Shown in pieces: positions 6,096-33,554 of a stretch of 64,000 bases of DNA. The DNA is from Hyphomonadaceae bacterium (GTDB taxonomy: Bacteria > Pseudomonadota > Alphaproteobacteria > Caulobacterales > Aquidulcibacteraceae). Under the pieces are notes generated by a model. It did no database searches and was not told the DNA's origin. It saw only the letters and a list, made by a program, of their open reading frames with translations. Made by a program: the position numbers and the translations under genes. Location: NCBI GenBank assembly GCA_019753105.1, contig JAIELJ010000011.1, forward strand, positions 124,001-188,000, given 5' to 3'. The first letter of the stretch is position 1. Each line of letters opens with the position of its first letter.

Positions 6096-6211
6096 TGGGG
6101 AGCGGCCCGCCTCACCTTCCAGCACCGGCGTTTTAATGCGAGAAGTCGGCTCCTACAAAGCAAATCCCGCGCTACGGGCGTGAGGCTTGCAGTGCTTCGC
6201 CAGGCTTACCC

Positions 6212-9558: not shown

Positions 9559-10598
9559 GCAGTCTCCATCGAGCGCACGCGCAGATCACCATCGAGCGCT
9601 TGGTCAGCCAGGAGCTTACGAATATGAGCGATGCGATTGTAGCGGACGCCCTCGAACTCCTCGAGCGTGATGCCCGACTTCTTGTACGCGGCGTAGAGTT
9701 GCTCGGCGCCCTTGCGCGCGTCCCATTGCGGCTTGAACGCCGGCAGCGCCTTGGCGATCTTCTCGAAGCTCACCTTGTACGAACGCGTATCCGGGCCGGC
9801 GTCGGACGCCAGCTCGATCTTCGTGTTCGGCACCACTTCGCCAACGATCTCGGCGATGTCGCGGATGCGATAATTGTGCGCGGTTTGGCCGACATTGAAC
9901 GCTTCGTTGTGAATGACGTCGCGTGGCGCTTCCATCGCGGCGATGAAGGCGCGCGAAATGTCTTCGATGTGAACGATCGGACGCAGCGGCGTGCCATCGG
10001 ACTTCAAGAGAATGACGCCCTTAGTCATGCCCCAAGCGACCAAATTGTTGAGCACGATATCGAAGCGCAGACGCGGGCTTACGCCGTAAGCCGTGGCGGG
10101 GCGCAGGAAGGTTGGCGAGAAGCTATCGTCGGCGAGCTTCGCAACATCGCGCTCGACCCAGACTTTCGATTGGCCATAGGCGGTGACGGGGTTCAGTTCG
10201 CCCGTCTCGTCGATCATGTTGTCGCCGGACTTGCCGTAGTTCGAGCACGACGAGGCAAAGAGGAAACGCTCAACGCCCGCCTGCTTGGCGAGTTCGGCCA
10301 GCTTCACGCTGGCGCGGTGGTTGATAGCGTAGGTCAGATCCGGATTGAGATCGCTCAGCGGATCGTTCGAGAGCGCGGCCAAGTGGATGACGGCGTCGAA
10401 GCCCTCAAGGTCGCTGGGTTCGAGATCGCGGAGGTCCTTGATGATGGACGGGATTTCGATGATCTCGCCGCCCTCGGCGAAGGTGCAGCGGCGATAGAGG
10501 TTAGCGTCGATGCCGGTAACGTCATGGCCGGCCGCGCGCAGCATCGGCACCATCACCGTGCCGATATAGCCCAAATGACCGCTCAGCAGGACCTTCAT
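9555..10598 (-). CDS. NAD-dependent sugar epimerase/dehydratase (extended SDR)
   Basis: 347 residues. The nucleotide-binding motif GHLGYIG starts at residue 7, D33 in the GIDANLY segment should choose NAD, and the active site shows [10 protein letters not shown] plus YGQSK (Y-x3-K). A downstream HIEDISRAF segment matches the sugar-nucleotide epimerase family. I chose the ATG at 10598 because GAGG sits about 10 bases before it; the ATG at 10610 is the alternative. It lies between the priming transferase and the DUF4910 gene in one direction of transcription. It may supply the dehydratase, epimerase or ketoreductase step that the rfbF pathway needs. Confidence 0.88.
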
Positions 10599-16017: not shown

Positions 16018-17145
16018 CTATTTACGCCACGTGTAGACAGCGCTGACGGCGTAGTTCCACACCGCGCCAAGCAGGATGCCGGCGAGCGCCGAGAACACCC
16101 AGAACGTCTGCTGCACGAAAAGATAGTTCGCGACACCCACATTGGCGGCCATGCCGACTGCGCAGATGGCGGCGAACGAGATCAGCCCTGTGATCCAGCG
16201 GAAGCCTTTGCGGCGGCGATCGCGGTAGGTCAGCATGTTGTTGAGCGTATAGTTGAAGACCATCGCGACCGACGCCGCGATCGCTTGGCTCCACGCGAAA
16301 TTCTGCCCCATCACTTGGAACAGCATGGTCAACACCATGAAGTGAATGACGACGCCAAAGCCGCCAATGAGGCCGAACGACACGAACCGCGCCGGCACCA
16401 GCTTGCCGATGCGTTTGTCGATCAAGAGCAGAAAGAAATCCCACAGCGCTTGCGTATCGAGCTTGCTCTCACCGGCGACGCGGTTGCGGAATTGATAGGG
16501 CTGCTCATGAACGCGCAGCTTGCCTTTTCCGCTTGCCAGAATGTCGAGCAGGATCTTGAAGCCCAGGCCCGAGAGATCGCGGACGACGCCGTTGAAGGCT
16601 TCGCGGCGGAGCAGGAAGAAGCCGCTCATCGGGTCGGAAAGATTTACGCCGGTGACCTTGTGCGAAAGCCAGGTGGCGAGCGCGCTCATTTGGGCGCGCG
16701 ACTGGTTCCACTCGCCGATCGAGCCGCCCTTGGCGTAGCGTGTGCCGACGGCGATGTCGGCGCTGCCGGAGCGCACGGCGGCCAGCATCTGCGGCAGCGC
16801 GGTTTCGTCATGCTGGAGGTCGGCGTCCATGACGGCGACGAACTCTGACGATGACGCAAGCGCGCCTTCGATGCAGGCAGTCGAAAGGCCGCGGCGGCCG
16901 ATGCGGTGAAGCACACGCACACGCGGATCGGTCTGCGAAATGCCGCGCACGACATTGGCGGTGCCGTCCGGGCTATCATCGTCAACGAAGATGACTTCCC
17001 AGCGTATGCCCTGGAGCGCTGCGTCCAGCACTTCGACCATGCGCGGGACGTTAAGAGACTCGTTAAACGTCGGGATGACGAGCGTGAGCTCATAGCCGTC
17101 GACCGCCGGTGTGGCGGCCGGCGCAAGGCTCGGCGCTTCGCTCAT
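16018..17145 (-). CDS. GT2 polyprenyl-phosphate glycosyltransferase fused to GtrA domain
   Basis: 375 residues from the ATG at 17145, which has GGAGA 7 bases upstream. Residues 20-245 are a DPM1-like GT2 domain with TLVIPTFNES, VDDDSPDGT, MDADLQHD and LSDPMSGFF. Residues about 255-375 are a four-helix GtrA domain starting RFVSFGLIGGFGVVIHF. GT2 makes polyprenyl-phosphate sugar, and GtrA-type domains are thought to help flip it across the inner membrane. The fusion plus the adjacent GT39 gene forms a compact supply-and-transfer pair for periplasmic glycosylation. Confidence 0.9.
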   Translation of the reverse strand: MSEAPSLAPAATPAVDGYELTLVIPTFNESLNVPRMVEVLDAALQGIRWEVIFVDDDSPDGTANVVRGISQTDPRVRVLHRIGRRGLSTACIEGALASSSEFVAVMDADLQHDETALPQMLAAVRSGSADIAVGTRYAKGGSIGEWNQSRAQMSALATWLSHKVTGVNLSDPMSGFFLLRREAFNGVVRDLSGLGFKILLDILASGKGKLRVHEQPYQFRNRVAGESKLDTQALWDFFLLLIDKRIGKLVPARFVSFGLIGGFGVVIHFMVLTMLFQVMGQNFAWSQAIAASVAMVFNYTLNNMLTYRDRRRKGFRWITGLISFAAICAVGMAANVGVANYLFVQQTFWVFSALAGILLGAVWNYAVSAVYTWRK

Positions 17146-17181
17146 GCTGACGTCTCCCAAAACGGGCCCTCTCCTGCTCGA

Positions 17182-17207
17182 AAAGCCGACATATGTCACG
17201 CGGCTTT
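17182..17207 (-). terminator. Hairpin with T4 tail between manC-type and GT2-GtrA genes
   Basis: On the minus strand, AAAGCCG (17207-17201) pairs with CGGCTTT (17188-17182) across a 12-base loop, and the stem runs into TTTT. It lies 37 bases before the GT2-GtrA start, so it can act as the end of the upstream operon or as an attenuator. Confidence 0.45.
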
Positions 17208-17280: not shown

Positions 17281-19419
17281 CTATGCGCCTTCAAGAACCC
17301 GGATCGCGGTGATGATGTGATAAAAGGAACTGCCCGTGACCGGCTCGGCGACGAAGCTGTTGTCGGCGCGGAGCTGGTCGTACCAGAGGCCGGGTGCTGG
17401 GCCACTCAGATAGCGGGCGAGGATCCTGGCGGCGGCGAGTGCGTGATCTTCCTCGCCGAGGATAAGTGCTGCTTTCAGATATTCGGTCTGCGCCCAAAGG
17501 CGCGCGTTGTGTGAGATTGGCTGAAACGCTTCATCGACCGCTTCGATGGCTGCGCCGCGGCGCGGATCGAGGCCGCGGACGCCTGAGGCGAAGAGTTGTC
17601 GCGCGATCGCGGTTTCGCCGGCCCGCGCAAGCAGCCACGCCCACTCGAACTGATGCCCCGGTTCAAGGCGGCGTCCGTCTTCTCCGGGCGCGGGCGACCA
17701 ATCGGCGGCGTAAAACTCGCGGATGAAACCGCCATCGCGATCGTAGAAACGCGTGCGCGCGAGTTCGAGCAATTCAGCGGCGAGCTTTTCCCACACCTCC
17801 CCGCCGCCCGCTTCGCGCCAGGCGAGTGCTGCTTCGAAGAGGTGCATGTGCGCATTGGCTTGGAACGGGTGCGCCGAAACTTCGCGGAAACCGGCGGCAG
17901 CGTGACGATAGGATTGCAGCGCCGCGATGATCGCTTCCGCCTTGCTGCGGTAGGCTTCGTTGCGAACATGCTCAAAGAGCGATGCGAACGCGAGCAAAGC
18001 GAAGGCTTGATCGTAAATCAGTGCGTCGTCTTTGAGGGCGTCGCCGTCCGGCGCGACGAGCGTGCGGTAGAGGCCGTCTGAGCGTAGATAGGCGGCATCG
18101 AGATAATCGAGCGCACGCTGCGCCGCTTGCTGCCACGGCCCCGGCCAACCCATCAAACCGGCTTGCGCGTACGTATAAGCCTGGCGCGCTTGCACGCGCA
18201 TGCGGCGCGGAAGATCGACACCGGCGCCATCGGCGGAGAGCGCTTCGTGATAGCCGCCGCGCGCGTGATCGGCGCCGAGGCTCGCCCAAAGCGGCAACGC
18301 GCTCATGCGCAGCCAGCGGCCGAACCAGGCCTTCGCGCCGGCGATATCGTTGAACGGCGCGACTTCTGCTTCGGCGCCTTTTGCTTTCAAGCCATCGACC
18401 AGCGTCTTCACGCTTTGGCTCTGCGCCAGATCGGCGACCAGCACATGACCGCCATCCGCGACGATCGCGAGATTGCGCACGCCGACCGTCGCGACGTGCA
18501 TGCCGGGCGCAGCATGGATAAGAGTGTTGTGGCTCCCCTGATGAGTGACAGCGCCATTGGCGGCGTTGCCGTCACCGTCCTTCGCGCTGGCGCTCCACAC
18601 AGCATCCCAGGCGCCGAGATCGGACCACGCGAAGCTCAACGGGATGACGGCGGCGCGGTCGGTCTTTTCCATGACGGCGTAGTCGATCGAGATTTTCGGC
18701 GCCGCGCGGAAGCCGTCGCCAAGCGTTTGCACGCCTTCGCTCTCCGTGGCCTCCGCCACGCCCGCGCGCGCCGCGGCGGCGACGTCAGGCGCATAGCGCT
18801 CAAGTTCGCCGAGCATCACCGAAGCGCGGGCGACGAAATTGCCGCTGTTCCAGAGGTAGCCCTTTGCGATGTAGCTCTGCGCCGTATCGGCCTTGGGCTT
18901 TTCGACAAAAGCGTTGACCTTGCGCACTTCGCCTTGCGCTGCGCCAGGATCGACATAGCCGTAAGCCGTGTTCGGGCCCGTGGGCGTCACACCCATCGTG
19001 ACGATAAAGCCCTCTTCCGCCGCTTGCGCCGCAGCAGCGGCGGCGGAGCGGAAGGCGCCGGCGTCCGGGACGTGATGATCGGAAGCAACGACGATGGCGA
19101 CGCCGTCCTTGTCATGCGCTTCGATCCAGGCGCAGGCGGCTGCGATGGCGGCGGCGCTGTCGCGCGGTTCGGGTTCGAGAAGGATCTTGGCGCTGAGATT
19201 GATCGCAGCCAGTTGCTCTTTGAGCGCAGCAGCATGCGCAACGCCAGCGACGACGACCAATTCTGCGGCGCCTTCGATGCTGACGACACGCAGCGCGGTT
19301 TCCTGAAACAGTGAGCGCTCACCAATCAGCGGAATGAATTGCTTCGGACGCGCTGCGCGTGAGGCCGGCCACAACCGCACCCCCGCTCCACCGCACATAA
19401 TGACAGGATAACGCGCCAT
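17281..19419 (-). CDS. Mannose-1-phosphate guanylyltransferase fused to AGE-family isomerase
   Basis: 712 residues. Residues 1-345 are a ManC-type nucleotidyltransferase: CGGAGVRLWPASRAARPKQF near the N-terminus, LLEPEPRDSAAAIA, ASDHHVPD, AFVEKPKAD and NSGNFVARASVML. Residues about 365-712 are an (alpha/alpha)6-barrel of the N-acylglucosamine 2-epimerase (AGE) family, with DQAFALLAFAS, HMHLFEAALAWRE and EPGHQFEWAWLL. The expected activities are mannose 6-phosphate/fructose 6-phosphate isomerisation and GDP-mannose synthesis in one chain. Ordinary bifunctional ManC enzymes carry a cupin isomerase domain instead. The gene starts 21 bp after the membrane protein gene 19441-20970. Confidence 0.9.
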   Translation of the reverse strand: MARYPVIMCGGAGVRLWPASRAARPKQFIPLIGERSLFQETALRVVSIEGAAELVVVAGVAHAAALKEQLAAINLSAKILLEPEPRDSAAAIAAACAWIEAHDKDGVAIVVASDHHVPDAGAFRSAAAAAAQAAEEGFIVTMGVTPTGPNTAYGYVDPGAAQGEVRKVNAFVEKPKADTAQSYIAKGYLWNSGNFVARASVMLGELERYAPDVAAAARAGVAEATESEGVQTLGDGFRAAPKISIDYAVMEKTDRAAVIPLSFAWSDLGAWDAVWSASAKDGDGNAANGAVTHQGSHNTLIHAAPGMHVATVGVRNLAIVADGGHVLVADLAQSQSVKTLVDGLKAKGAEAEVAPFNDIAGAKAWFGRWLRMSALPLWASLGADHARGGYHEALSADGAGVDLPRRMRVQARQAYTYAQAGLMGWPGPWQQAAQRALDYLDAAYLRSDGLYRTLVAPDGDALKDDALIYDQAFALLAFASLFEHVRNEAYRSKAEAIIAALQSYRHAAAGFREVSAHPFQANAHMHLFEAALAWREAGGGEVWEKLAAELLELARTRFYDRDGGFIREFYAADWSPAPGEDGRRLEPGHQFEWAWLLARAGETAIARQLFASGVRGLDPRRGAAIEAVDEAFQPISHNARLWAQTEYLKAALILGEEDHALAAARILARYLSGPAPGLWYDQLRADNSFVAEPVTGSSFYHIITAIRVLEGA

Positions 19420-21127: not shown

Positions 21128-22594
21128 ATGCCGTTCATTTCGACGCACTTTGCCTTGTTCTTCGCGATCGTAGCTGTGGTGAACTTTCTCATCCCGGTAC
21201 GCTGGCGCTTGCATTGGCTCACGCTCGCCAGCCTCTACTTCGTCGCTGTCGGCGGCGTGGTTTACCTTGTTCAGGTGCTGCTTGCGGCGGCGCTCGCCTA
21301 TTTCGTCGCACTCCGCATCGATCTGGCGGCGGATAAGCCGAAGAAACAACGCTGGTTGGCGCTGGGCGTTATTGCGCTGATCGCGAACCTCTTCTGGTTC
21401 AAATACGCCTCATTCTTCAACGAGAGCTTCCGCGCCGTCGCTGAGGCGCTGGGCTTTAGCTACACGGTCCCGGAACTGAACCTCATCCTGCCTCTCGGCA
21501 TCTCGTTCTATACGTTCCTGCTGATCGGTTATCTGATCGACGTCCTGCGCGGTACGAAAGCCGAGCGCGACATCGGCGCGTTCACGATGTTCGTGACGTT
21601 CTTCCCGAAATTCGTCTCCGGCCCGATCGAGCGCAGCAAAAACCTGCTGCCGCAGCTGCACGTCGATCACGCCTTCGACGCCGCACGCATCGCGGCTGGC
21701 GCGCACCTCGCTCTGTGGGGCGTGTTCAAGAAGGTTGTCGTCGCTGACCGGATCGCGCCGTTCGTCAACGAAGTCTACGCCAACCCGCAAGCCTATGACG
21801 GCCCCACTTTGGCAATCACGACGTTTCTGTACGCGTTCCAAATCTATTGCGACTTCTCGGGTTACACGGACATCGCGCTCGGCTGCGCGCTCATCCTCGG
21901 CTACAAACTCGTGCCGAACTTCAATCGGCCCTACTTCGCCACCTCGATCCAGGATTTCTGGCGCCGCTGGCACATGTCACTGACGACGTGGCTGACCGAT
22001 TACGTCTACACGCCGCTGACGCGTCAGAAATGGCTCAAGGTGAAGTTCTTCACCATGACGCTGATCGGGCTCTTCATCACCTTCCTGGTAAGCGGGCTTT
22101 GGCACGGCGCGGCGTGGACCTATGTCGCCTGGGGCGCGCTGCATGGCGCGTACATCGTTGTGTCGCTAATGCTGCAGAAGCCTTGGAACCAGTTCGCGCG
22201 CCAGATCAAACTCGATAAAGCGCCGAATCTCTATCGCGGCTTGAAGATCGGCGTGACGTTCCTGCTCGTCTGTATCGCCTACGTGCTCTTCCGCGCGGAG
22301 AGCATGAATGATGCGATGTACATTTACGCGAACGTGCTCTCAGGCTGGGGTGGTCTGGTCGAGGCGTTGCGGGAAATGTTTGCGCGCGGCGCCGATGAAC
22401 TGACATTGGCGATCGCCGGCATCATCGTGATTTTCTTGGCCGATCTGCTGCAAGGGCGCGCAGCAAGCGCCAAGCGTCCGCACGTATTGCAGGCTGCGCC
22501 AGCGCGCTGGGCGCTCGTCAACGCCTGCGCGCTTTCAATCGTCCTCGTCGGCGCCTTCTACGGCGCGCAACAATTCATCTACTTCCGGTTCTGA
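21128..22594 (+). CDS. MBOAT family O-acyltransferase (AlgI/DltB-like)
   Basis: 488 residues, about eleven membrane helices, beginning MPFISTHFALFFAIVAVVNF; AAGGAG lies 13 bases upstream. The MBOAT hallmarks are the LPLGISFYTFLLIGYLID segment, the RPYFATSIQDFWRRWHMSL segment, and WHGAAWTYVAWGALHGAY near residue 330, whose histidine is the catalytic residue of the family. It passes an acyl group across the inner membrane to a periplasmic acceptor. It opens an operon with an SGNH-like protein, a carrier protein, an AMP-forming ligase and a reductase, which together look like a complete acyl supply and transfer line. Confidence 0.92.
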   Translation: MPFISTHFALFFAIVAVVNFLIPVRWRLHWLTLASLYFVAVGGVVYLVQVLLAAALAYFVALRIDLAADKPKKQRWLALGVIALIANLFWFKYASFFNESFRAVAEALGFSYTVPELNLILPLGISFYTFLLIGYLIDVLRGTKAERDIGAFTMFVTFFPKFVSGPIERSKNLLPQLHVDHAFDAARIAAGAHLALWGVFKKVVVADRIAPFVNEVYANPQAYDGPTLAITTFLYAFQIYCDFSGYTDIALGCALILGYKLVPNFNRPYFATSIQDFWRRWHMSLTTWLTDYVYTPLTRQKWLKVKFFTMTLIGLFITFLVSGLWHGAAWTYVAWGALHGAYIVVSLMLQKPWNQFARQIKLDKAPNLYRGLKIGVTFLLVCIAYVLFRAESMNDAMYIYANVLSGWGGLVEALREMFARGADELTLAIAGIIVIFLADLLQGRAASAKRPHVLQAAPARWALVNACALSIVLVGAFYGAQQFIYFRF

Positions 22595-22596
22595 CG

Positions 22597-23652
22597 ATGG
22601 CCGCCGACTCCTCCCCCGTCAAAACACACCCGGCGCGCGACGCGCTGCGCTTGGGCATCAAGGCGCTTTCGGTCGTGCTCGTGTGCGCGGCGGCAACATT
22701 CGCTGTCTTCTGGTTTGTACCCGAGGGCGGCACCTACGCGCGCGCGACCGTGATCAAGCATGAGCGCCTTGCTTCGATTGAAGGACCGAAAATCGTTCTC
22801 GTCGGCGGCTCCAACCTAGCCTTCGGCATCGACACGCGCTTGATCGAAAGCGCAACCCAATGCCCGGTCGTAAACATGGGCATGAACGGCTTTTTCGGTG
22901 TGCGCTTCATGCTGGAGGAAGTCCGCCCCGAACTCACCGCCGGCGATACGGTTGTGATCGCGCTTGAGTACGACAGCTTCTTCAAGTCCGTCGACGGCAC
23001 GGCATCCAACCTTCTGCTTGTGGTCAAGGAACGCCCCGAAGCGTTCGACGCGCTGACATGGCGCCAACGCCTCGAACTCGCCGGCGCGATGCCTTATGTC
23101 GCGCAGCAGAAAATCCTCCGCCTCCTACGCGCCGCCGCATACGGCCTGCGCGATGCGGTGCTCGGCCCAGACGATGATGACAGCGCTCCGGTAGAATCCG
23201 ATCTCACAAGCGAGGTCGAGACCGCAGAAGGCTTCAACGCCGAAGGCGATCTCGTTAGCCACCTCGGCATGGATTGGCCCCTGGAGATCAGCCAGGGCAC
23301 CCCGGCAGATTCACCTGTAGACCCGGGGGTCATTCCGCTCCTGCGCCAGTTCCAAGATGACATGGCCGCCCGCGGTGTGCGGGTCATGGTTTCTTACACG
23401 CCGCTGGAAGCATATTTCTACGCGCGCTACCAGAGCGGTATTGATGGCATCGAACGGCGTATGCGCGAGGCGGGCTTGAACGTCATCTCCCCAGCGCGTG
23501 ACTACGTTTACGACGAATCCTTTTTCTTCGACACCGTCTTTCACGTAAACGCTGACGGACGCGCGATGCGCTCTGAACGCCTCGCGCAAGACATTAACCA
23601 ATTCATCGGCGCGGACGCGGGTTGCGCAGGCGCCTCTGGAGCAGAGCAATGA
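22597..23652 (+). CDS. Membrane-anchored SGNH-like acyltransferase partner (DltD/AlgJ-like role)
   Basis: 351 residues. A single N-terminal membrane helix at about 20-42 places the rest in the periplasm. LVGGSNLAFGID near residue 68 is the block with the SGNH nucleophile serine. FDTVFHVNADGRAMRS near residue 313 supplies a D-x3-H pair. An acidic insert lies around 190-215 (GPDDDDSAP). It starts 3 bp after the MBOAT stop and its TGA overlaps the carrier-protein ATG. In Dlt and alginate systems an SGNH-fold partner completes acyl transfer after the MBOAT step; I infer the same role here. Confidence 0.75.
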   Translation: MAADSSPVKTHPARDALRLGIKALSVVLVCAAATFAVFWFVPEGGTYARATVIKHERLASIEGPKIVLVGGSNLAFGIDTRLIESATQCPVVNMGMNGFFGVRFMLEEVRPELTAGDTVVIALEYDSFFKSVDGTASNLLLVVKERPEAFDALTWRQRLELAGAMPYVAQQKILRLLRAAAYGLRDAVLGPDDDDSAPVESDLTSEVETAEGFNAEGDLVSHLGMDWPLEISQGTPADSPVDPGVIPLLRQFQDDMAARGVRVMVSYTPLEAYFYARYQSGIDGIERRMREAGLNVISPARDYVYDESFFFDTVFHVNADGRAMRSERLAQDINQFIGADAGCAGASGAEQ

Positions 23653-23894
23653 CGGAAGAGCAAGTTCTCGGCGAGATCAGCAAAGCGGTCGCGCAGATCC
23701 TGAGCGACAAGGGCCTGCCCGCGCCGGCGCTGACGGCCGACACCGAATTGCTCGGCGGCGATCTGCAGATCGACTCGCTCGATCTCGCCATGCTGGTGCG
23801 CGAGATGGAAGAACGCATCGGCTTCGATCCGTTCCAGGACGGCTTCATCGATTTCCGCACCGCGGGCGAATTAGCGAAGCTCTACGTCAAATGA
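23649..23894 (+). CDS. Acyl carrier protein
   Basis: 81 residues from the ATG of an ATGA overlap. The predicted four-helix carrier has the phosphopantetheine site LQIDSLDLAMLV with serine 43. It is acidic, as carrier proteins are (EMEERIGFDPFQDGFIDF). Its place between an MBOAT/SGNH pair and an AMP-forming ligase points to a dedicated carrier that receives an activated acid and hands it to the MBOAT enzyme, as DltC does for D-alanine. A phosphopantetheinyl transferase is not in the window, so the housekeeping one must load it. Confidence 0.93.
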   Translation: MTEEQVLGEISKAVAQILSDKGLPAPALTADTELLGGDLQIDSLDLAMLVREMEERIGFDPFQDGFIDFRTAGELAKLYVK

Positions 23895-25192
23895 ACGAAC
23901 GCGGTCTGGCCCTCCATGTGAACGCCGACGCCGCTCTGGTGGCGCGCGGGGCTGACCGTTTCACGCGCGGCGCGGTGCACGCGCGCATCAACGAACTCGC
24001 CGCTGCGTTCAACGCACGCGGCGTACGGCGCGCTTTGGTTTGGAGCGACGATCCCGTTGATCTGCTGCGGGCAATCGGCGCGGCTGATGTCGCCGGCGCG
24101 GACCTCTTCATCGCTCACACGAATCTCCCGGCAGCGATCGTCGATGAGATTGCGGCCCAGCATGGCGTACAGGCGCGGATCGGCGAAACCGATACCTTCG
24201 TGAACGCGGAAGCGCCCCCGGCCTCGGGCCGCATCTACATGATGACGTCCGGCACCACTGGCAAACCGAAGATCGCCGCGCACACGCTCGACGCTTTGAT
24301 GAGCCGCGCGCGCGCTGGTGCGAAATCGGCGCAAGCAGCGGACAGCAAGTGGCTACTCACTTATCAGCCGACGGGCTTTGCCGGCATCCAAGTCTTGCTG
24401 ACCGCCGTCGCCACGCACGGCCTCATCGTAGCACCCGAACAACGCACGCCGGGCGGCTTTGCGGCGGCGGCGCGCGATCATGGCGTCACCCAAATCAGCG
24501 GCACGCCGACATTCTGGCGCGCCTTCATGATGGTCGCGCGCCCGAGTGAGCTGGCGCTGAAGCAAATCACGCTTGGCGGCGAAGCGGCGGATCAGGCGAC
24601 GCTTGATCGTTTGAAAGCAGCGTTCCCGAACACGCGTGTCACACACATCTACGCTTCAACAGAAGCCGGCGTTGTGTTCGCCGTGCATGACGGCCGCGAG
24701 GGCTTTCCGAAAGCGTGGCTCGATGAGCCACCCACCGGCGTGGCGCTGCGCATCGTTGACGGCCTGCTGCAGATCAAGTCGGCAAACCTGATGGGCGGCT
24801 ATCTCGGCCACGATGCTCAGCCCCTTCTTGATGACGGTTGGCTCTCAACGGCGGATCGCTGCGAGATTGCGGGCGATCGTGTGCGCATCCTCGGCCGCGA
24901 CGATAGCACCATCAATGTCGGCGGCTCGAAAGTGTACCCGCTGATGGTCGAGCAATTTCTGTTGCAGCAAACGGGCGTGGTTGAAGCGCGGGTGTTTGCA
25001 GTGCCGAACCCGGTAAGCGGTTCGCTCGTCGGCGCCGAGATCGTGTTCGCCGAAGATCAGGACCATGCCGAAGCGCGCGCGCGTGTGCTGGCGGCGTGCC
25101 GTGAGAATCTTGCATCATATCAAGTGCCGCGCGTGGTGAAGATCGTGGATCAGATCAACGTGCGCGAGTCGGGCAAAAAGGGCGCGACATGA
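23891..25192 (+). CDS. AMP-forming acid:carrier-protein ligase
   Basis: 433 residues, shorter than most family members (about 500 or more) because the N-terminal part is reduced. Core motifs are present: MTSGTTGKPKIA (A3, 118-129), YASTEAG (A5), DDGWLSTADR (A7), GRDDSTINVGGSKVYP (A8), and a C-terminal ESGKKG lysine (A10, 429/430). It should form an acyl-adenylate and load it on the neighbouring carrier protein. The A4 region reads YQPTGFAGIQ and lacks the FD pattern with the aspartate that holds the amino group in amino-acid ligases such as DltA. The substrate is therefore probably a simple or hydroxy acid. ATGA overlaps occur at both ends. Confidence 0.88.
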   Translation: MNERGLALHVNADAALVARGADRFTRGAVHARINELAAAFNARGVRRALVWSDDPVDLLRAIGAADVAGADLFIAHTNLPAAIVDEIAAQHGVQARIGETDTFVNAEAPPASGRIYMMTSGTTGKPKIAAHTLDALMSRARAGAKSAQAADSKWLLTYQPTGFAGIQVLLTAVATHGLIVAPEQRTPGGFAAAARDHGVTQISGTPTFWRAFMMVARPSELALKQITLGGEAADQATLDRLKAAFPNTRVTHIYASTEAGVVFAVHDGREGFPKAWLDEPPTGVALRIVDGLLQIKSANLMGGYLGHDAQPLLDDGWLSTADRCEIAGDRVRILGRDDSTINVGGSKVYPLMVEQFLLQQTGVVEARVFAVPNPVSGSLVGAEIVFAEDQDHAEARARVLAACRENLASYQVPRVVKIVDQINVRESGKKGAT

Positions 25193-25926
25193 GCGAGCGT
25201 AAGCATATCATTGTAACCGGCGGCAGTCGCGGCCTTGGCGCCGCGATGATCGCAGGCTTGCTCGCCGATGGCCATCGCGTCTCGACATGCAGCCGCAAGA
25301 AATCCGCTGCGATCGAAAGCTTGCTTGCGAGCCACGCTGACAGTTTCTTCTGGCAAGAAGCGCAAGTCGGCGAAGGCGAGCAAGTCGATGCGTTCGTCAA
25401 AGCCGCCGGCGAATGGGCCGGTGATGATGGGATTTACGGCCTCGTCAACAATGCCGGCGTCGCTCAAACCGGCATTCTCGCGTCGTTCCCGAACGTCGAG
25501 AGCGAGCGCATGATCCAAATCAACCTGATTGGCGCGATCCAGATGGCGCGGGCTGTGTCGCCGTTTCTGATGAAGCGCGGCGAAGGCCGGATCATCAATA
25601 TCAGTTCGATCATCGGCCAGCGCGGCTATAACGGCATGTCCGCCTACTCAGCGTCGAAAGCCGGCATGGATGGCCTGACGCGCGCGCTCGCACGCGAACT
25701 CGGGCCCCGTCAGATCACAGTGAACAGCGTCGCGCCCGGCTATGTCGCGACAGAGATGTCCTCCACGCTCACGCCGCCGCAGATGAAACAGATCGTCAAC
25801 CGCACGCCGCTCGGCCGCTTGGCCAGCGAGCAAGACGTGTTCGAACTCGTGCGCTTTCTTTTGAGCGACAAAGCCTCATGCATCACCGGCCAAGTGATCC
25901 TGGTCGATGGCGGCATTTCCTGCTGA
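25189..25926 (+). CDS. SDR family reductase (3-oxoacyl-ACP reductase-like)
   Basis: 245 residues of classical SDR. The TGGSRGLG cofactor motif is at 10-17, NNAG at 87-90, and the catalytic residues are S140, Y153 and K157 in YSASKAG. The sequence ends with ITGQVILVDGG, usual for FabG-like enzymes. Its ATG overlaps the ligase TGA. Placement at the end of an acyl-carrier operon suggests it reduces a 3-oxoacyl group on the carrier protein or finishes the acyl substituent, giving a hydroxyacyl decoration. The cofactor (NADPH or NADH) cannot be read safely. Confidence 0.88.
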   Translation: MSERKHIIVTGGSRGLGAAMIAGLLADGHRVSTCSRKKSAAIESLLASHADSFFWQEAQVGEGEQVDAFVKAAGEWAGDDGIYGLVNNAGVAQTGILASFPNVESERMIQINLIGAIQMARAVSPFLMKRGEGRIINISSIIGQRGYNGMSAYSASKAGMDGLTRALARELGPRQITVNSVAPGYVATEMSSTLTPPQMKQIVNRTPLGRLASEQDVFELVRFLLSDKASCITGQVILVDGGISC

Positions 25927-25930
25927 CGCC

Positions 25931-27220
25931 ATGGAGCTGCTTCAAACCCTTCGCGGCAGCGGCCTTCTGGCGAACCCGGTTTATTACGCCGCGCTTGTCT
26001 GCGGGCTGTTTGCGCTTTGGTTCTTATTCAAGCGCGGCGTAAGCGAGCGCGCGATCTGGACGGCGGCGATCGGGTTATCCGTGCTGATCGCCATTTTCGT
26101 GTTCATGTTCAGCGTGCCGCCGTCGCCGTTTCAGGATTTCACGCGCGCGTACTGGGGCGCGGGGCGCGGCGTACATTCGGGCTGGGAGGGTCTTTCCCAG
26201 CATTACGGGCGCGAAGTGTTCGGCTTCGTCAATCTGCCGATCCTGGCTTACCTCTTCGCACCATTCGCGCTGCTCGAGCCGCAACCGGCTGCTTACATTT
26301 TTACTGCGCTTGGCTTCGGCGCCGTCATCTTCGCGTGGTGGAAGATCTGCGCGCTTTACAATTTCGACCTGCGCACGCGCGTGTTCAGCCTCTTCCTGAT
26401 CGCCGCGTTCGGGCCTCTAGTCTATTCGTTCCGTGAAGCGAACACGACCCATATCCTGCTCCTGCCACTCGTTCTCGCGGTTTCGGCCATGCGCAACAAG
26501 CAAGACCTGCGCGCGGGCGCTCTGATCGCGACCGCGGCGCTGATCAAGCCGTTCTTGCTGCTGATCGGCGTTGTTGCCTTTCTGCGCGGGCGGTTTCGTA
26601 TCGCGATCGGCGGCGGCATCGTTGTCATCGCCACAACGTTGCTCTCGCTCGCCGTCTTCGGCTGGGACGCGCACGTGCATTGGTACGAAACCGCGATCGC
26701 GCCCTATTCCGGCGCACCGCTGCCGGCGTTCAACTCGCAGTCGATCGCCTCGATGCTCTCGCGCATGGAGCGTGGCCCTGGCGCGTACTGGAGCTTCGAT
26801 GTCGCCCCTTTGGCTGATGTGTTCCGCATCGTGCTCTATGCCATCTACGCATTGTTGCTTGCCGCCTTCGTGTGGGCGGTGAAGCCGTGGCGCTCGCCGC
26901 GCGCCGATGATCGCGCATTCGAAGGCGAGATGATGATCGCGCTCACACTCTCGCTGATCGTCTCCACTCTGGCCTGGACGCACTATTTCGCGCTGACGCT
27001 GCTGCCTGTGGCGTGGCTCTGGACGCAGCTCACCTCACAGCGCGAGCGCTGGGCGTTGGCGGCAGCTTATGTGCTCGCCGCCCCGATTGTGTTCTACGGC
27101 GTGCGCATGGGCGAAGGCGATTTCGGCCCGGCCTTCTATGTACTCGGCTCCCACGTCACAGTCGCTGCGCTCATCTTCTACGCCCTGCTCATCAGAGCGC
27201 GCGCGAGGTTGACGCCATGA
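25931..27220 (+). CDS. GT87-like (DUF2029) membrane glycosyltransferase
   Basis: 429 residues from the ATG at 25931, 4 bp after the reductase stop. Ten or more hydrophobic helices are visible. The first long loop holds PFQDFTRAYWGAGRGV with the aspartate expected of GT-C catalytic loops, then FGFVNLPILAYLFAPFALL. The segment LVLAVSAMRNKQDLRAG...ALIKPFLLL is characteristic of the DUF2029/GT87 family of polyprenyl-phosphate-mannose-dependent transferases. Overlap of its TGA with the next ATG places it in the same operon as the acylation genes. Confidence 0.82.
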   Translation: MELLQTLRGSGLLANPVYYAALVCGLFALWFLFKRGVSERAIWTAAIGLSVLIAIFVFMFSVPPSPFQDFTRAYWGAGRGVHSGWEGLSQHYGREVFGFVNLPILAYLFAPFALLEPQPAAYIFTALGFGAVIFAWWKICALYNFDLRTRVFSLFLIAAFGPLVYSFREANTTHILLLPLVLAVSAMRNKQDLRAGALIATAALIKPFLLLIGVVAFLRGRFRIAIGGGIVVIATTLLSLAVFGWDAHVHWYETAIAPYSGAPLPAFNSQSIASMLSRMERGPGAYWSFDVAPLADVFRIVLYAIYALLLAAFVWAVKPWRSPRADDRAFEGEMMIALTLSLIVSTLAWTHYFALTLLPVAWLWTQLTSQRERWALAAAYVLAAPIVFYGVRMGEGDFGPAFYVLGSHVTVAALIFYALLIRARARLTP

Positions 27221-28200
27221 CCAAGCCACTCGTCGCAATCTACACCCCCGTTTATAACGGGGCGAAATTCATCGAGACCGCGATCAAGACCGTGCTGGCG
27301 CAAACCTATCAGCCGATTGTCCATGTCATCGTCGATAATGCGAGCACGGACGGCACAGACGAGATCATTGCGCGCTATATCGCCCAAGGCGCTAACATCA
27401 TCGTCAAGCGCAATCCGGAAACCGTGCCGCAGGTCGACAACTTCAATCTCGCCGTCGATATGGTGCCAGCGGAAGCCAAGTACATGCGCCTGATGTGCGC
27501 GGATGACGGCATCCCGCCGATGGCGATCGAGCGCATGGTGGCAGCGGCGGAGAGCGTCGATAACGTCATCATGGTCGGCGGCGTCGAGCGCGTGAACGGC
27601 GTCGAGATCCCGCATCACTTTCCGCGCGAAAGCACGGTGTTTGAGGCGAGCAATGCGATCGCGCGCTGGTTTGCCGATTATGCTCGCATTCCCATGATGC
27701 ACATCCTGACGCGCACCGACACGCGCCGTCAGGGCGTCCCTTATTACAACACCGCGGTAAACAGCGCCGATACGGACATGATGCTCCGCGTGCTTTCTCA
27801 GGGCGGGCGCTACGTGCACCTGCACGAGCCGATCGGCGATACGACCAACCACCCAGGCACGCGCCGCGAAACGCTCGACGCGCGGATCATGACGATCATC
27901 TGGGAGCACACGTACTACGCCGAAATCTACGGCGCCGGAGCGCTTTCCAATTCAGAGCGCGAGCGCGTGCGGCGCTCACATCTGCGCGTGATGTATCGGC
28001 GCTTGTTGTTCTGGACCTTCTCGAAACCCGATCTGGCCAAGCGAGATTACGCGTTCCTGAAAGCGCGCGGCTTGCAGCCTAGCTTCGCAGACTATCTCGA
28101 CGCGCTCCTCTTCTGGCCGGAGCACGTCTACATCAAGCGCTTCAGCGGGATGCACTTGCCTAAGCCGTGGCCGGACGATGCGGTTCGGCCCGGGAGCTGA
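27217..28200 (+). CDS. Glycosyltransferase family 2
   Basis: 327 residues, GT-A fold. IYTPVYNGAKFIETAIKTVL begins near residue 8, VDNASTDGT gives the nucleotide-binding segment, and MRLMCADDGIPP provides a DD-containing metal site around 85-90. The ATG is part of an ATGA overlap with the GT87 gene. It adds one sugar to the lipid-linked repeat unit in the cytoplasm; donor and acceptor are unknown. Its last 41 bases overlap the 3' end of the opposite-strand pyruvyl transferase gene. Confidence 0.88.
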   Translation: MTKPLVAIYTPVYNGAKFIETAIKTVLAQTYQPIVHVIVDNASTDGTDEIIARYIAQGANIIVKRNPETVPQVDNFNLAVDMVPAEAKYMRLMCADDGIPPMAIERMVAAAESVDNVIMVGGVERVNGVEIPHHFPRESTVFEASNAIARWFADYARIPMMHILTRTDTRRQGVPYYNTAVNSADTDMMLRVLSQGGRYVHLHEPIGDTTNHPGTRRETLDARIMTIIWEHTYYAEIYGAGALSNSERERVRRSHLRVMYRRLLFWTFSKPDLAKRDYAFLKARGLQPSFADYLDALLFWPEHVYIKRFSGMHLPKPWPDDAVRPGS

Positions 28201-29362
28201 CGCCGGCGACTACGTCCAGCATTTGCGTCTGCACCTCAGTGACACGCGCTCTCATCGCAGAAACGCGCTGCGCGACGATGGCGCTGTAATGGGCAGGATT
28301 GGCCGCAATAATTTCGACGTGACGAGTCAGAAGGTCGAAATCGAAATAGTCTGCAGGTTGGCAGAACTCGCCAAGGCCAGCCTCGCTCATCAGCAGATCA
28401 TGCTTGGGTCCATAGCTCAACGAAACGCAAGGGCGATTGAGCTTTAGGCCAGCGACGAGCACGTGAAAGCGCGAGCCGATGACGATGTCGCACTCGCGGA
28501 TCGAGTTCATCACATCGTCCAACACCACCATATCGCCACCGCCACGATCTACATCATCGCCCAACAGCGTCTTCAACTTCGTCAGCGCCCGGGCGTCTGA
28601 CGGCTCCGCGACTAGGAATCGGATGCGGTATTCGCGCGCCTCCGCCCAGCGGACGAAGCGCGCAAGCTTTTCGCGATAGTCGTCGCCAAGCGCCTCGTCG
28701 ATGCGCCAACCACGATAGGACATAACGCCAAGGCAGATCGTAAGCGGCGGCGCGCTGCGCACGGGTGGCGGCTCATCAACCTGCTGCCCGATCACGATGT
28801 CAGGCATTACCGGGCTGCGCGTTTCGTCGACGCCAATGCTTGCCATGAACGCTTTCGAACCACTGTCGCGGTATGAGCGATGGTTCGCGCATCGGGCAGC
28901 AGTCTTGAGGAAGAAGCGGCTGAGCGGATTGACGATTGGGCCCGCCCCTACGCCATAGAAGATAAGCTTTTTGCCCATCAATCGCGCGACGACAGACCAG
29001 CGAAAGACTTGCGCCGGGAAACCCATCGGCCCCGTGCGATAATCATCAAACACACCCGTTCCGGGCCAGAGCATGACGTCAAACCGGCGTGCAATCCAAA
29101 ATGCGCGCAGCCAGTTGAAGAGGCCACTCGGGATGCGCAACAACGCTGTGTCCAGAAGCTTCAGCATGCCGCTCGGCCGGAGCGCGAGCTTCATGCTCGG
29201 CAATCCCAGACGCGCTGCGACGATCACAGGGGCATCGCAGAGGCATTCAATCGCAGCGTCCGGAAACCCCGCCTGCAGCACAATGAGCGCTGCCTGCAAC
29301 GAGGCGTCATTGCCGAAATTGCCGTTGCCGAAGCCTCCCGCGAGGGTGATGCGAAGCGTCAT
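28160..29362 (-). CDS. Polysaccharide pyruvyl transferase family protein
   Basis: 400 residues of the CsaB/WcaK type. GGFGNGNFGNDASLQAAL at the N-terminus, LWPGTGVFDDY, KKLIFYGVGAGPI, and late ECDIVIGSRFHVLVAGL followed by SLSYGPKHDLLM are family blocks. It would place a ketal-linked pyruvate from phosphoenolpyruvate on a sugar of the polymer, adding negative charge. The ATG overlaps the end of the GT4 gene (29359-29362), so the two are coupled. The 3' end converges with and overlaps the GT2 gene by 41 bp. Confidence 0.88.
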   Translation of the reverse strand: MTLRITLAGGFGNGNFGNDASLQAALIVLQAGFPDAAIECLCDAPVIVAARLGLPSMKLALRPSGMLKLLDTALLRIPSGLFNWLRAFWIARRFDVMLWPGTGVFDDYRTGPMGFPAQVFRWSVVARLMGKKLIFYGVGAGPIVNPLSRFFLKTAARCANHRSYRDSGSKAFMASIGVDETRSPVMPDIVIGQQVDEPPPVRSAPPLTICLGVMSYRGWRIDEALGDDYREKLARFVRWAEAREYRIRFLVAEPSDARALTKLKTLLGDDVDRGGGDMVVLDDVMNSIRECDIVIGSRFHVLVAGLKLNRPCVSLSYGPKHDLLMSEAGLGEFCQPADYFDFDLLTRHVEIIAANPAHYSAIVAQRVSAMRARVTEVQTQMLDVVAGVSSRAEPHRPATA

Positions 29363-30713: not shown

Positions 30714-32084
30714 ATGCCAGGCGCCTTTTACGTCCCTGCTCTTCTGCCGATGCCGATCATCGCCGTGGTGGCGCTGCTGACGGCTGTGCTGACAGTGCTG
30801 GCGATGGCGCGCGTCAAGGCACGCGGCGCGATGTACGTGATCGGCATCAGTTGGCTGCGCTACGTGATGCAGGCCTTCCACACGATCACCTACCAGCCGC
30901 TGGCGGCGGGCGTATCGATCAACGCGGTTGGCACGATCGGGTTCTTCATCGCCGGCCTCGCCATCATCAACTGGCGCAATCTCGCGCTCAAAATGATGAC
31001 GCCGTTCTACATCGTGATCGCGGTTGCCTTCATAAGCATCATGGTCAACGGCGGTGAACTTTCGACCATGATCGAGGCGCTGACGAAATACGGGTTCCTC
31101 ATCGTCGTCACGCTCGCCACCTATTCTGGACTTCGCAACACCCAGGACGGCGCATTCATGCGCCTGCTGCTTTGGGCATTCGTTCCGGTCGTATTGCTGC
31201 AGATCGCCTCGATCGGGCTCAATATCGGCAAGACGGCTGAAACGGCGCCGGGATCGACCTCCTATATCGGCGGCTACAATCACGAATCCATCTTTTCAGT
31301 GATGCTGGCGACAGGTCTCGCCGTCACCTGCTTGGCGACGAAGCTGAACCGCACTGTCCAGTTCGGCCTCATAGTCGTCTTCGTCGCCGGCATTGTCTTC
31401 GCCAACTATCGCACGACCCTCCTCGCCATCGCACCACTTCTGGCGCTGTTCTTTGGCATGTCGACGCTGCAACAATTCCCAAAGCGCGACCGGCCGTTGA
31501 TGATCTGTTTCGTGCTCGTCTTGGGCATGATGGCGCTCGGCTTTGCCAGTGTTGCGTTCACCCAGCGCTTCCAGGACTTCACCGTTCTGTTCAGCGGCGA
31601 CGTCAATCTGATCAAGCCACCGGATCAATACACGATCGAGGAAACGCGCCTCTTCTCCGGCCGCGCCAAAATCTGGAGCATGTACATATATGGATGGTCG
31701 CTGGGCTCGCCCTTCCAGCACATGATCGGCCTTGGGCCCGAAGCATGGAAAGGCGTGTTCGCGCTTTACGCCCACAACACGCTCGTGAACCAGCTTTACG
31801 AGTACGGCATTGCCGGCGTGCTTGCGCTGCTGTTTCTGTGGGGCTCGATGCTCGCCGCAGCGCTTCGCGTACGCCACCCGCAACGCGCGACGCTTGTCGG
31901 CGCGCACCTGATGTTCCTGGTGCTCAACATGGCGACGATGCCGATGTGGATGATCGAGGGCAACATCCTCTACGGCATTATCTGCGGCTACACGCTCTAT
32001 CTGCTTTCGCTCCAAGGGTCGCCGCAGCAAGCCACGCCGCACACGACAACCGCGCCGGCTCGACCGCGGCAAGGGGCGGCTTAA
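30714..32084 (+). CDS. O-antigen ligase/polymerase-like membrane protein (Wzy-like)
   Basis: 456 residues with about eleven hydrophobic helices and one large periplasmic loop at roughly 270-365. After that loop comes YAHNTLVNQLYEYGIAGVL, the Wzy/WaaL (PF04932-like) segment with the catalytic-type histidine. Another arginine block is in FANYRTTLLAIAPLL. It would join lipid-linked repeat units in the periplasm. It is immediately followed (3 bp) by the flippase gene. The C-terminal tail (QQATPHTTTAPARP) is low in complexity. Confidence 0.82.
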   Translation: MPGAFYVPALLPMPIIAVVALLTAVLTVLAMARVKARGAMYVIGISWLRYVMQAFHTITYQPLAAGVSINAVGTIGFFIAGLAIINWRNLALKMMTPFYIVIAVAFISIMVNGGELSTMIEALTKYGFLIVVTLATYSGLRNTQDGAFMRLLLWAFVPVVLLQIASIGLNIGKTAETAPGSTSYIGGYNHESIFSVMLATGLAVTCLATKLNRTVQFGLIVVFVAGIVFANYRTTLLAIAPLLALFFGMSTLQQFPKRDRPLMICFVLVLGMMALGFASVAFTQRFQDFTVLFSGDVNLIKPPDQYTIEETRLFSGRAKIWSMYIYGWSLGSPFQHMIGLGPEAWKGVFALYAHNTLVNQLYEYGIAGVLALLFLWGSMLAAALRVRHPQRATLVGAHLMFLVLNMATMPMWMIEGNILYGIICGYTLYLLSLQGSPQQATPHTTTAPARPRQGAA

Positions 32085-32087
32085 GTC

Positions 32088-33554
32088 ATGGCGCTCCGAC
32101 GCATCGCCTTCGGCGCGGCCGCGCTCTCGGCAGCGCGCGTGTTTCAACTCGGCGCGAGCTTTCTCACCGTGCCGTTCATGGCGCGCCTGCTCGAACCACA
32201 CGAATTCGGTCTCGTCGCTATCGCCATGGCGATCGTGGCGCTGACTTTGGCGGTGAGCGATGCGGGACTAAGCCGGTCGTTGATCCGCACGGACAATATT
32301 GAGAGCGACGCTTGGTCTACCGCGCACTGGCTCATTGTTGCGGCTACGGCGCTGCTCTCGCTGCTGCTGGCGCTTGGCTCATGGCCGACAGCGCTCTTCT
32401 TCGAGACACCCGCACTGCTGCCAGTGATGCTCGCGCTTTCCATCATCCCGTTGATGCAAGGCTTCTTGGAACTCCCGATTGCTGCGCTGATCAAGCGAGA
32501 GAACTTCATGCCGCTCGCGATCGCAGATTTCGCGGCAGCGCTTGGCGGCGCGGCGGCCGCGATCGGGTTCGCTTTGGCCGGCTTTGGGGCGTGGGCGCTG
32601 GTGGCCCAAAACATCGTCAACGTCGCCATCCGCGCGCCAGTGATTATATTCGCGGCGAACTACAAGCCGCGCCGAGTGTTCAATCTGGCTGCACTCGGCG
32701 AACACGTGAAATTCGCGCGCGACACGATGGGCTACGCCATCATGCAAGCGGTCAGCCGCCAGGTTGATCCGTTCGTCATCGGTAAAGCTCTCGGCACCGC
32801 GCCGCTCGGGCTGTACTCCGTGGCCTTCCGCATCATGAACCTGCCGGCTGGAATCATCGCGACGCCGGTGCAGACGGCTCTTTATCCGCGCCTCGCCTAC
32901 CTCCGTGACAAACCCGACGAGTTGCGCGCTCTGGTGCTCACAGCAACCATCGGACAAGCAGCGCTAGTTTTTCCGCCCATGGCGGCGGCGGCGGCGGCCA
33001 GCACCGCCGTGTTCGAGATCTTGCTCTCCTACCGTTGGGGAGAGGCCGGCTTCGTCTTCTCGGCGCTCGCAGTCGCCGGGATGGTGCAAGTGATCACCAA
33101 TTTCAACAGCTCGCTGCTTCAAGCCATCGGACATACCGGCACGCGCCTGCGGCTCACATTCGAGTTCACCCTGCTCTGGGCGATCGCAGCGCTTTTGAGC
33201 GCCCAGTTCGGCCTCATCGCTGTTGCCGGCATGTTCAGCGTCGTCAGCGTGCTCTACCTGCCGCGATCGCTGACGCTGCTTCTGAGGCGCCTGCAATGCT
33301 CGTTTCTCGACTATCTGAAGGCGTTGTCAGGGCCGGTCCTCGTTTCGCTGGCGGTTGTTGCCTGCCACCTGCTCGTCACGCGCTTCGCGGAACTGAATAA
33401 CTGGCAGGAAGTCGCTGTTGCAGTCGTCGAGACTCTCGCAGCTTACGCTGCGCTGCTCGTGTTCGGTCGGCGCGATATTGAGCAGCGTCTGCACCAGGTT
33501 CGTACGTTAATGGCGCAGACCAAGCCGGAAGGCGAGCCGGTATCGCCCGGTTAA
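32088..33554 (+). CDS. Oligosaccharide flippase (Wzx/PST family)
   Basis: 488 residues, about fourteen hydrophobic helices. The N-terminus ARVFQLGASFLTVPFMARLLEPHEFGLVAIA is typical of PST-family translocases (read in two parts around GAS). FARDTMGYAIMQAVSRQVDPFVIGKALG is the conserved segment before the helix pair at 230-260. It moves the undecaprenyl-linked repeat unit to the periplasmic side of the inner membrane, feeding the Wzy-like polymerase encoded just upstream. A 7-bp hairpin (33566-33586) follows the stop but has no T-run. Confidence 0.9.
   Translation: MALRRIAFGAAALSAARVFQLGASFLTVPFMARLLEPHEFGLVAIAMAIVALTLAVSDAGLSRSLIRTDNIESDAWSTAHWLIVAATALLSLLLALGSWPTALFFETPALLPVMLALSIIPLMQGFLELPIAALIKRENFMPLAIADFAAALGGAAAAIGFALAGFGAWALVAQNIVNVAIRAPVIIFAANYKPRRVFNLAALGEHVKFARDTMGYAIMQAVSRQVDPFVIGKALGTAPLGLYSVAFRIMNLPAGIIATPVQTALYPRLAYLRDKPDELRALVLTATIGQAALVFPPMAAAAAASTAVFEILLSYRWGEAGFVFSALAVAGMVQVITNFNSSLLQAIGHTGTRLRLTFEFTLLWAIAALLSAQFGLIAVAGMFSVVSVLYLPRSLTLLLRRLQCSFLDYLKALSGPVLVSLAVVACHLLVTRFAELNNWQEVAVAVVETLAAYAALLVFGRRDIEQRLHQVRTLMAQTKPEGEPVSPG

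Follow-up and report, generated by a model that had tools for sequence, protein, structure and literature searches.

Within the window, by which we mean the whole stretch of 64,000 nucleotides that was analysed, five plus-strand genes (21128..25926) encode what we read as a carrier-fed MBOAT/SGNH operon that would place a short omega-hydroxy acid on a periplasmic glycan; to this chain as a whole we assign a probability of roughly 0.55. That the MBOAT/SGNH pair receives some acyl group from the carrier is very likely, and the group is probably an omega-hydroxyacyl.

The cassette begins with an MBOAT acyltransferase of 488 aa (21128..22594, +; Pfam MBOAT, 89.5 bits against a cut-off of 27), followed by a 351-aa SGNH-fold protein with one N-terminal membrane helix, assigned from a structure model (22597..23652, +), an 81-aa acyl carrier protein (23649..23894, +; PF00550 PP-binding, 27.4 bits, cut-off 20.8), a 433-aa AMP-forming acyl ligase (23891..25192, +; PF00501/PF13193, AMP-binding 86.3 bits, cut-off 29.9) and a 245-aa SDR reductase of the MupS/TmlS clade (25189..25926, +; adh_short_C2, 183.2 bits, cut-off 27). 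Each ORF has an ATG start and a single terminal stop. The ORFs, the Pfam matches and, for the SGNH protein, the structure model bear out an earlier sequence-only reading of this DNA, which had listed these five genes, intact, in this order. That reading had described the junctions as 3-bp gaps or ATGA overlaps; three are indeed 4-bp ATGA overlaps, but the gap between the MBOAT and SGNH genes is 2 bp (22595..22596, +). Compared with the locus of a relative (L048), the five genes show dN/dS values of 0.11-0.24; against the more distant loci L052 and L054 the values are 0.16-0.48, with dS mostly above 1.

The identical five-gene order recurs in 13 distinct genomes, from the window genus, Hyphomonas and its relatives, and Asticcacaulis, so the arrangement is not a matter of chance, and the co-occurrence in relatives expected by the earlier reading is found. 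In SGNH profile searches, which covered a sample of genomes, the arrangement was present in all 11 genomes with an SGNH match among 398 genomes of the taxonomic order. The carrier gene lies directly 3' of the SGNH gene in 13/13 genomes, with overlaps or with gaps of at most ~25 bp; in one genome (G053) the MBOAT and SGNH genes are each split in two. The count of 13 leaves out two Rhodococcus loci with unrelated ligases (L055, L056) and duplicates of loci already included (L030/L031 and L101-L104). Regions behind ligase matches were covered in 14 of 15 other genomes, G221 being left out of the counts.

Residues 115-389 of the MBOAT match the solved DltB in a profile search (E 6e-37), and H282 and H326, both invariant in the 12 rows of the MBOAT alignment, align with the histidines of the RWH and WHG motifs in DltB. 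The sole MBOAT match in NCBIfam is the DltB model TIGR04091, at 188 bits far under its cut-off of 375. The protein runs 99 residues beyond its DltB match (21 in DltB itself), through what we judge by eye to be extra TM helices, to a C-terminal FIYFRF (483-488) that is present in 13/13 distinct genomes (in G053 on the second piece). According to one paper, an FxYxxF peptide of this kind is an acyl shuttle, which non-Dlt MBOATs carry fused behind two additional TM helices that DltB lacks; the pathways of these MBOATs are described there without a carrier protein (PMC12148441). Tyr485 is presumed to be the shuttle residue. Neither this C-terminal peptide nor the linked GT87 appears in the sequence-only reading, which also did not mention that the cassette lacks a DltX gene.

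For the SGNH protein, the fold assignment is supported by a structure model of middling confidence together with a fold search. S72, N97-G98, D312 and H316 are invariant in 9 rows, and S72, D312 and H316 would form a catalytic triad. Nothing scored above cut-off in Pfam, NCBIfam or a PDB profile search (ALGX reached 13.5 of 26.5 bits), and DltD, AlgX and PatB gave no significant match in sequence. These three are also absent among the 50 fold matches listed for the model, which is no argument against them.

The carrier has an invariant DSL serine (Ser43), in an IDSLDLA motif that is invariant in 9 rows, and the ligase has the motif TSGTTGKPK at residues 119-127. A motif alignment agrees with the earlier claim that this ligase lacks the amino-group-binding aspartate pattern of DltA. 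In the DltA-like row L088, the FSFDLS motif holds the Asp that we take to bind the amino group. This Asp faces a gap in the cassette ligase, and the stretch opposite this row, TYQPTGFAGIQVLLTAV, is without Asp; L088 itself scores under the DltA cut-off. When set against 14 outgroup ligases, those of pTML1, Bradyrhizobium and Burkholderia, all recruited to the tree via their reductase, group with the cassette ligases (100/98). The cassette ligases form a deep sister group to the pTML1-type ligases, with ~30% identity to the pTML1 ligase, so that their substrate may differ from that of pTML1. Inside the group, the pTML1 ligase is placed with weak support beside L043 and L044, where the neighbouring SDR is not MupS-like; the histories of ligase and reductase are thus not identical.

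The reductase carries Y153-x3-K157 and the preceding ISS serine. It had been described as FabG-like, but it belongs with MupS/TmlS. The best PDB match is MupS (4yxf, 193.5 bits), followed by a 3-oxoacyl-ACP reductase (152.3), and the tree places it with MupS and the pTML1 reductase in a 28-row group (97/96) and in a narrower group of 20 rows, where the fork that joins the cassette to MupS (93/87) falls short of the tree program's star. An AU test rejected a clade of cassette and FabG (p-AU 0.0003), a result that speaks only against that clade, and the top NCBIfam match, TIGR01830, reaches 204.6 bits of a cut-off of 297.75. An identity as an added FabG was discarded on these grounds. Four residues, R36, G172, R205 and D240, occur in each of the 28 trio reductases and in none of 3 FabG rows, and a further seven occur in 85% or more of the trio reductases; some of these are perhaps general SDR features. 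The residues give no choice between 3HP and 4HB, and the comparison of ligases is with that of pTML1 alone. Carrier, ligase and reductase resemble the mupirocin/thiomarinol starter cassette, whose product is 3-hydroxypropionyl- or 4-hydroxybutyryl-ACP, and since the reductase falls in the MupS/TmlS clade and the trio resembles a cassette known to make starters, an omega-hydroxyacyl group is pointed to.

The glycan side of the model draws on the neighbours. The ATG of a polytopic GT87 glycosyltransferase (25931..27220, +; PF09594, 84.6 bits on the ORF 25907-27220) lies 4 bp past the reductase stop, and a GT2 gene (27217..28200, +; PF00535) overlaps GT87 by 4 bp (ATGA), so the operon likely extends through both, to 28200. 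Further genes around it encode a GT2 with a GtrA/DPMS membrane domain (16018..17199, -), a nucleotidyltransferase half with a weak ManC beta-helix match fused to a GlcNAc 2-epimerase half (17281..19419, -), a polysaccharide pyruvyl transferase (28160..29362, -), a Wzy/O-antigen-ligase-like protein (30714..32084, +; 28.7 bits, under the cut-off of 31.7) and a Wzx-type polysaccharide flippase (32088..33554, +). The claim of a polysaccharide locus thus stands as far as glycosyltransferase neighbours go, but in Asticcacaulis no polysaccharide cluster is evident among the five neighbours at L050 (GT2, epimerase, GMC oxidoreductase, autotransporter and one unnamed membrane protein). A GT87 gene is close to the cassette in 10 of the 13 genomes, the three without one being Asticcacaulis. 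Among 8 of the 13 cassette genomes, 8 of 12 GT87 genes (E<=1e-8) adjoin the cassette, and in four genomes that gene is the only GT87; same-strand, convergent and divergent arrangements all occur. In a PF09594 control, 10 of 20 cassette-free genomes have one GT87, so its presence alone is not specific.

The predicted route, from substrate through every catalytic step to acceptor, would run as follows. The ligase would act on a dicarboxylyl-CoA (malonyl-CoA or succinyl-CoA), adenylating the carboxylate that is free and loading the acyl group onto the Ser43-phosphopantetheine of the carrier. The MupS-type reductase would then turn the distal thioester into an alcohol, giving a 3-hydroxypropionyl- or 4-hydroxybutyryl-carrier. 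By analogy with what is known of Dlt and PatA, the MBOAT would accept the acyl group on the cytosolic side, where the carrier delivers it, and pass it to Tyr485 of its own FIYFRF, from which the periplasmic SGNH protein (Ser72-His316-Asp312) may receive it and esterify a glycan in which the GT87 enzyme encoded next door would also have a part. Quite improbably, the omega-hydroxyacyl could be a linker and not a cap, its free primary hydroxyl receiving a sugar from the linked GT87 in the periplasm; the product would be a polymer with sugar-ester-sugar bridges of 3-hydroxypropionate or 4-hydroxybutyrate. Such a linker would explain why the sole GT87 of four genomes adjoins the cassette, in varied orientations.

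One other reading diverges at the supply of the MBOAT by the carrier. In a control of 32 alphaproteobacterial MBOATs (32 of 33 places, G061 being left out; 18 of the 32 with 3 kb on both sides), 31 end in FxYxxF and the exception ends in unread bases. A carrier and a whole ligase were found nearby at the window only; carrier matches occurred only there and at L146 (~4 kb from the MBOAT, with no ligase), and ligase matches only there and at L140 (partial). MBOATs of the FxYxxF type are thus normally without a carrier, so this one may use acetyl-CoA, and the MBOAT/SGNH pair could be an ordinary acetyl-CoA-fed O-acetyltransferase sharing an operon with a trio that feeds some other cytoplasmic product (a lipid, a metabolite or an N-acyl sugar). 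The occurrence of trios without an MBOAT, beside hexapeptide acyltransferase, KAS III or PKS genes, fits this alternative as well. We consider it unlikely, given the fixed order with the carrier right after the SGNH gene in every cassette genome, and a cassette that fixes no alternative acceptor enzyme.

If the pair is carrier-fed, the cargo could still be a beta-hydroxyacyl, such as 3-hydroxybutyryl, that a FabG-like reductase would make from an activated beta-keto acid. The Y-x3-K residues of a FabG-like SDR and the TIGR01830 match would suit this, and glycans are known to carry 3-hydroxybutanoyl, as an amide in one O-PS (PMC8074265). It is a rather doubtful reading, as the TIGR01830 score is under cut-off, MupS outscores any FabG in the PDB, the cassette and FabG clade is rejected, and the five genes include neither a thiolase nor a ketosynthase. 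A divergent true Dlt system transferring an amino acid would have the same four functions, and DltB is the only MBOAT match in NCBIfam; but that match is far under its cut-off, the ligase has an Asp neither at the DltA position nor close to it, a search of the window's own genome at E<=1e-100 gave no TIGR01734 match, DltX is not encoded in the cassette, and it is not evident what a reductase would do in alanylation. A true Dlt operon was therefore rejected, and we regard amino acid transfer as extremely improbable.

If the omega-hydroxyacyl reading is right, one system joins two mechanisms that have been described as alternatives, the carrier protein of Dlt and the MBOAT-fused shuttle peptide of PatA/AlgI, and a mupirocin-type hydroxyacyl starter cassette has been put to new use in supplying acyl groups to surface glycans. 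For stalked and budding alphaproteobacteria it would predict envelope glycans that bear a specific, easily lost ester, and it would suggest that MBOAT/SGNH pairs can receive acyl groups beyond the common CoA esters. Word searches of the open-access literature found nothing joining MBOAT, acyl carrier protein, exopolysaccharide and SGNH, nothing joining 3-hydroxypropionyl, polysaccharide and O-antigen, and neither of the phrases "priming cassette" and "hydroxylated acyl starter".

Among known systems, the same carrier-ligase-SDR trio occurs in Azospirillum and Rhodobacterales, with 58-62% reductase identity in 12 Azospirillum plasmids among the matches listed and ~41% in Qingshengfaniella. There the trio has no MBOAT/SGNH pair and is flanked by KAS III and pseudaminic acid/flagellin genes, or by a hexapeptide acyltransferase and a glycosyltransferase. 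The mupirocin and thiomarinol clusters (MupQ-MupS-MacpD; pTML1) likewise encode an AMP-forming ligase, an SDR and a discrete ACP together. According to one paper, MupQ, MupS and MacpD make 3HP from malonyl-CoA, and thiomarinol is primed by 4HB (PMC10098928). In pTML1 the order is ligase-SDR-ACP-polyketide synthase, all adjacent, whereas the cassette has ACP-ligase-SDR, export machinery in place of any ketosynthase or PKS, and a substrate that is predicted only. With PatA/PatB and AlgI/AlgJ it shares an MBOAT ending in FxYxxF and an SGNH-fold partner with conserved Ser, His and Asp, but carrier and ligase genes are fixed alongside the cassette pair. The earlier equation of four genes with the Dlt functions holds as a Dlt-like division of labour, since ligase, carrier with a DSL serine, MBOAT with a core matching solved DltB, and SGNH protein are all there. 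It does not hold as membership in Dlt: the DltA Asp is missing, a reductase is present and the gene order is another. The shuttle peptide is fused to the MBOAT, whereas Dlt has the DltX microprotein with its FxYxxF, and within the cassette there is neither a DltX gene nor an intergenic gap large enough for one. Judged by its genes, the cassette looks able to build a small hydroxy acid on its carrier and to move it across the inner membrane onto a surface sugar chain, with parts of which some are familiar from the making of antibiotics and others from the acylation of cell walls.

Five plus-strand genes (MBOAT, SGNH protein, carrier, AMP-forming ligase and SDR reductase) were found at 21128-25926, in agreement with the sequence-only reading. 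That reading described the junctions as 3-bp gaps or ATGA overlaps; three are indeed ATGA overlaps, but the first is a 2-bp gap. The GT87 gene starts 4 bp past the end of the reductase gene and is itself overlapped by a GT2 gene, which makes 28200 the probable end of the transcription unit. Near the cassette are a GtrA/DPMS-type GT2, a minus-strand fusion of nucleotidyltransferase and N-acylglucosamine 2-epimerase halves (17281-19419), a pyruvyl transferase, GT4-like and Wzx-like proteins, a Wzz/AAA_31 protein, a Bac_transf sugar transferase and a Wzy-like protein scoring below the cut-off, from which we infer a Wzx/Wzy-type surface polysaccharide locus. This locus also holds a DUF4910/DUF2172 protein with HTH_47 (8233-9558, minus strand); in its vicinity are a C-methyltransferase (3820-5109) and, as a weak hit, a PhyH-like protein (5166-6125).

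The five-gene order recurs elsewhere. A ligase-based scan of genome contigs, which reaches close relatives only because it rests on a few peptide patterns, gave 10 loci, of which eight repeat the five-gene arrangement unchanged (three Asticcacaulis, two Hyphomonas, two MAGs from the window's own genus and the MAG HGW-Alphaproteobacteria-18). The other two, from Rhodococcus, are unrelated ligases. Searched with an SGNH-protein profile, 398 genomes of the order yielded 11 with a match, all with the five-gene order, counting G053, in whose assembly MBOAT and SGNH each lie in two frames. Going by contigs of identical length, the two sets share six genomes besides the window's, giving 13 distinct genomes with it included. 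The SGNH protein was matched in 4 of 60 genomes of the family and, in a phylum sample of 398, only in the window's own genome; the cassette is therefore rare and patchy within the searched genomes. dN/dS over the five genes was 0.11-0.24 between the window and locus L048, and 0.16-0.48 against L052 and L054. At the G053 locus (L032), carrier, ligase and reductase are whole beside the split genes, and assembly error or decay are both possible. The SGNH match of genome G774 (L096) was flagged with one internal TGA; the ORF in L105 is still 365 aa (8497-9594).

In 10 of the 13 genomes a GT87 gene lies near the cassette, variously on the same strand, convergent or divergent; for six of these neighbours, a BLAST query with the window's GT87 gave the only or the earliest hit. 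A PF09594 search of eight of the 13 found 12 GT87 genes (E<=1e-8), eight of them beside the cassette. The adjacent copy is the sole GT87 in G053, G774, G662 and G865; in Asticcacaulis endophyticus (G952) the only GT87 is located away from the cassette. Among 20 genomes without an SGNH match, 10 carry one GT87. This linkage, with the window's DPMS-like gene, suggests that the acceptor may be a periplasmic glycan dependent on polyprenyl-phosphate-sugar. Two loci have a HAD-UbiA prenyltransferase fusion close to the cassette (L032, 10392-11870; L107, 13798-15315), which we take to resemble polyprenyl-phosphate pentose synthesis.

The reductase had been called FabG-like. Its best PDB match is MupS of the mupirocin starter pathway (4yxf, 193.5 bits; runner-up a 3-oxoacyl-ACP reductase, 152.3), and a clade of cassette reductases with three FabG rows was rejected (p-AU 0.0003), although that rejection alone is no proof of MupS kinship. 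A 49-row tree places the 10 cassette rows in a 28-row group (support 97/96) with MupS, the reductases of pTML1, Bradyrhizobium and Burkholderia, and 14 others encoded next to ligases of this kind; E. coli FabG and the 10 further SDRs included from the window's genome all fall outside the group. Ten of these 14 come from loci recruited through the ligase only (L033-L042), so their placement is independent. A 20-row group of cassette, Azospirillum-type and MupS/pTML1 rows had support 93/87 and was not starred. Five further ligase-similarity loci (L043-L046, L072) carry a different SDR.

In the ligase tree (n=46), cassette, trio (carrier, ligase and reductase) and pTML1-type rows form two deep sister groups, split with support 100/98 from the 14 outgroup ligases; the ligases of pTML1, Bradyrhizobium and Burkholderia had entered it through their reductase. 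On pTML1, a plasmid of the thiomarinol producer, the gene row is ligase-SDR-ACP-polyketide synthase, and order and organism point to TmlQ, TmlS and TacpD. MupQ and TmlQ are reportedly CoA-selective, with a bis-CoA/ACP thioester as the intermediate in starter-making. Of the known systems, it is the mupirocin starter cassette that the donor half resembles most. Mupirocin-like ligase-SDR-carrier cassettes also occur on a Bradyrhizobium plasmid (L011), ahead of a type I PKS gene, and on a Burkholderia plasmid (L070), where the gene that follows is large and has an SDR-protein annotation.

The trio is also met with other partners. On Azospirillum plasmids, carrier, ligase and MupS-type reductase are followed by KAS III (~8.5-13.9 kb in L012, 10.5-16 kb in L009); the neighbouring pseudaminic acid synthase and flagellin genes make a hydroxyacyl chain on flagellin glycans possible. 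KAS III also adjoins the trio in L038 and L040. On two Rhodobacterales plasmids, the trio lies behind a hexapeptide acyltransferase with a glycosyltransferase adjoining (Qingshengfaniella, L013) or behind a gene annotated acyltransferase with a glycosyltransferase ~4 kb on (Haematobacter, L071), possibly for cytoplasmic sugar acylation. BLAST found the carrier in eight of L033-L042 (not in L036 or L042) and an MBOAT in none of these 10 fetched stretches, some of which are short. In L146, a carrier protein (9296-9499) and an unrelated MBOAT of alphaproteobacterial origin are ~4 kb apart, and no ligase accompanies them.

The identity of the acyl substrate is the weakest step of the proposed model. 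Omega-hydroxyacyl groups are reported on bacterial glycans, with 3-N-(4-hydroxybutanoyl)-3,6-dideoxyglucose named for the Idiomarina abyssalis O-antigen; that group is an amide, and an ester from MBOAT/SGNH would differ. A word search of the open-access literature found no description of Dlt-/PatA-like export combined with a mupirocin-like donor half. The Dlt comparison of the sequence-only reading holds for function, but the cassette is not itself a Dlt system; its export half works like that of PatA and AlgI, from which it differs in having a dedicated carrier.
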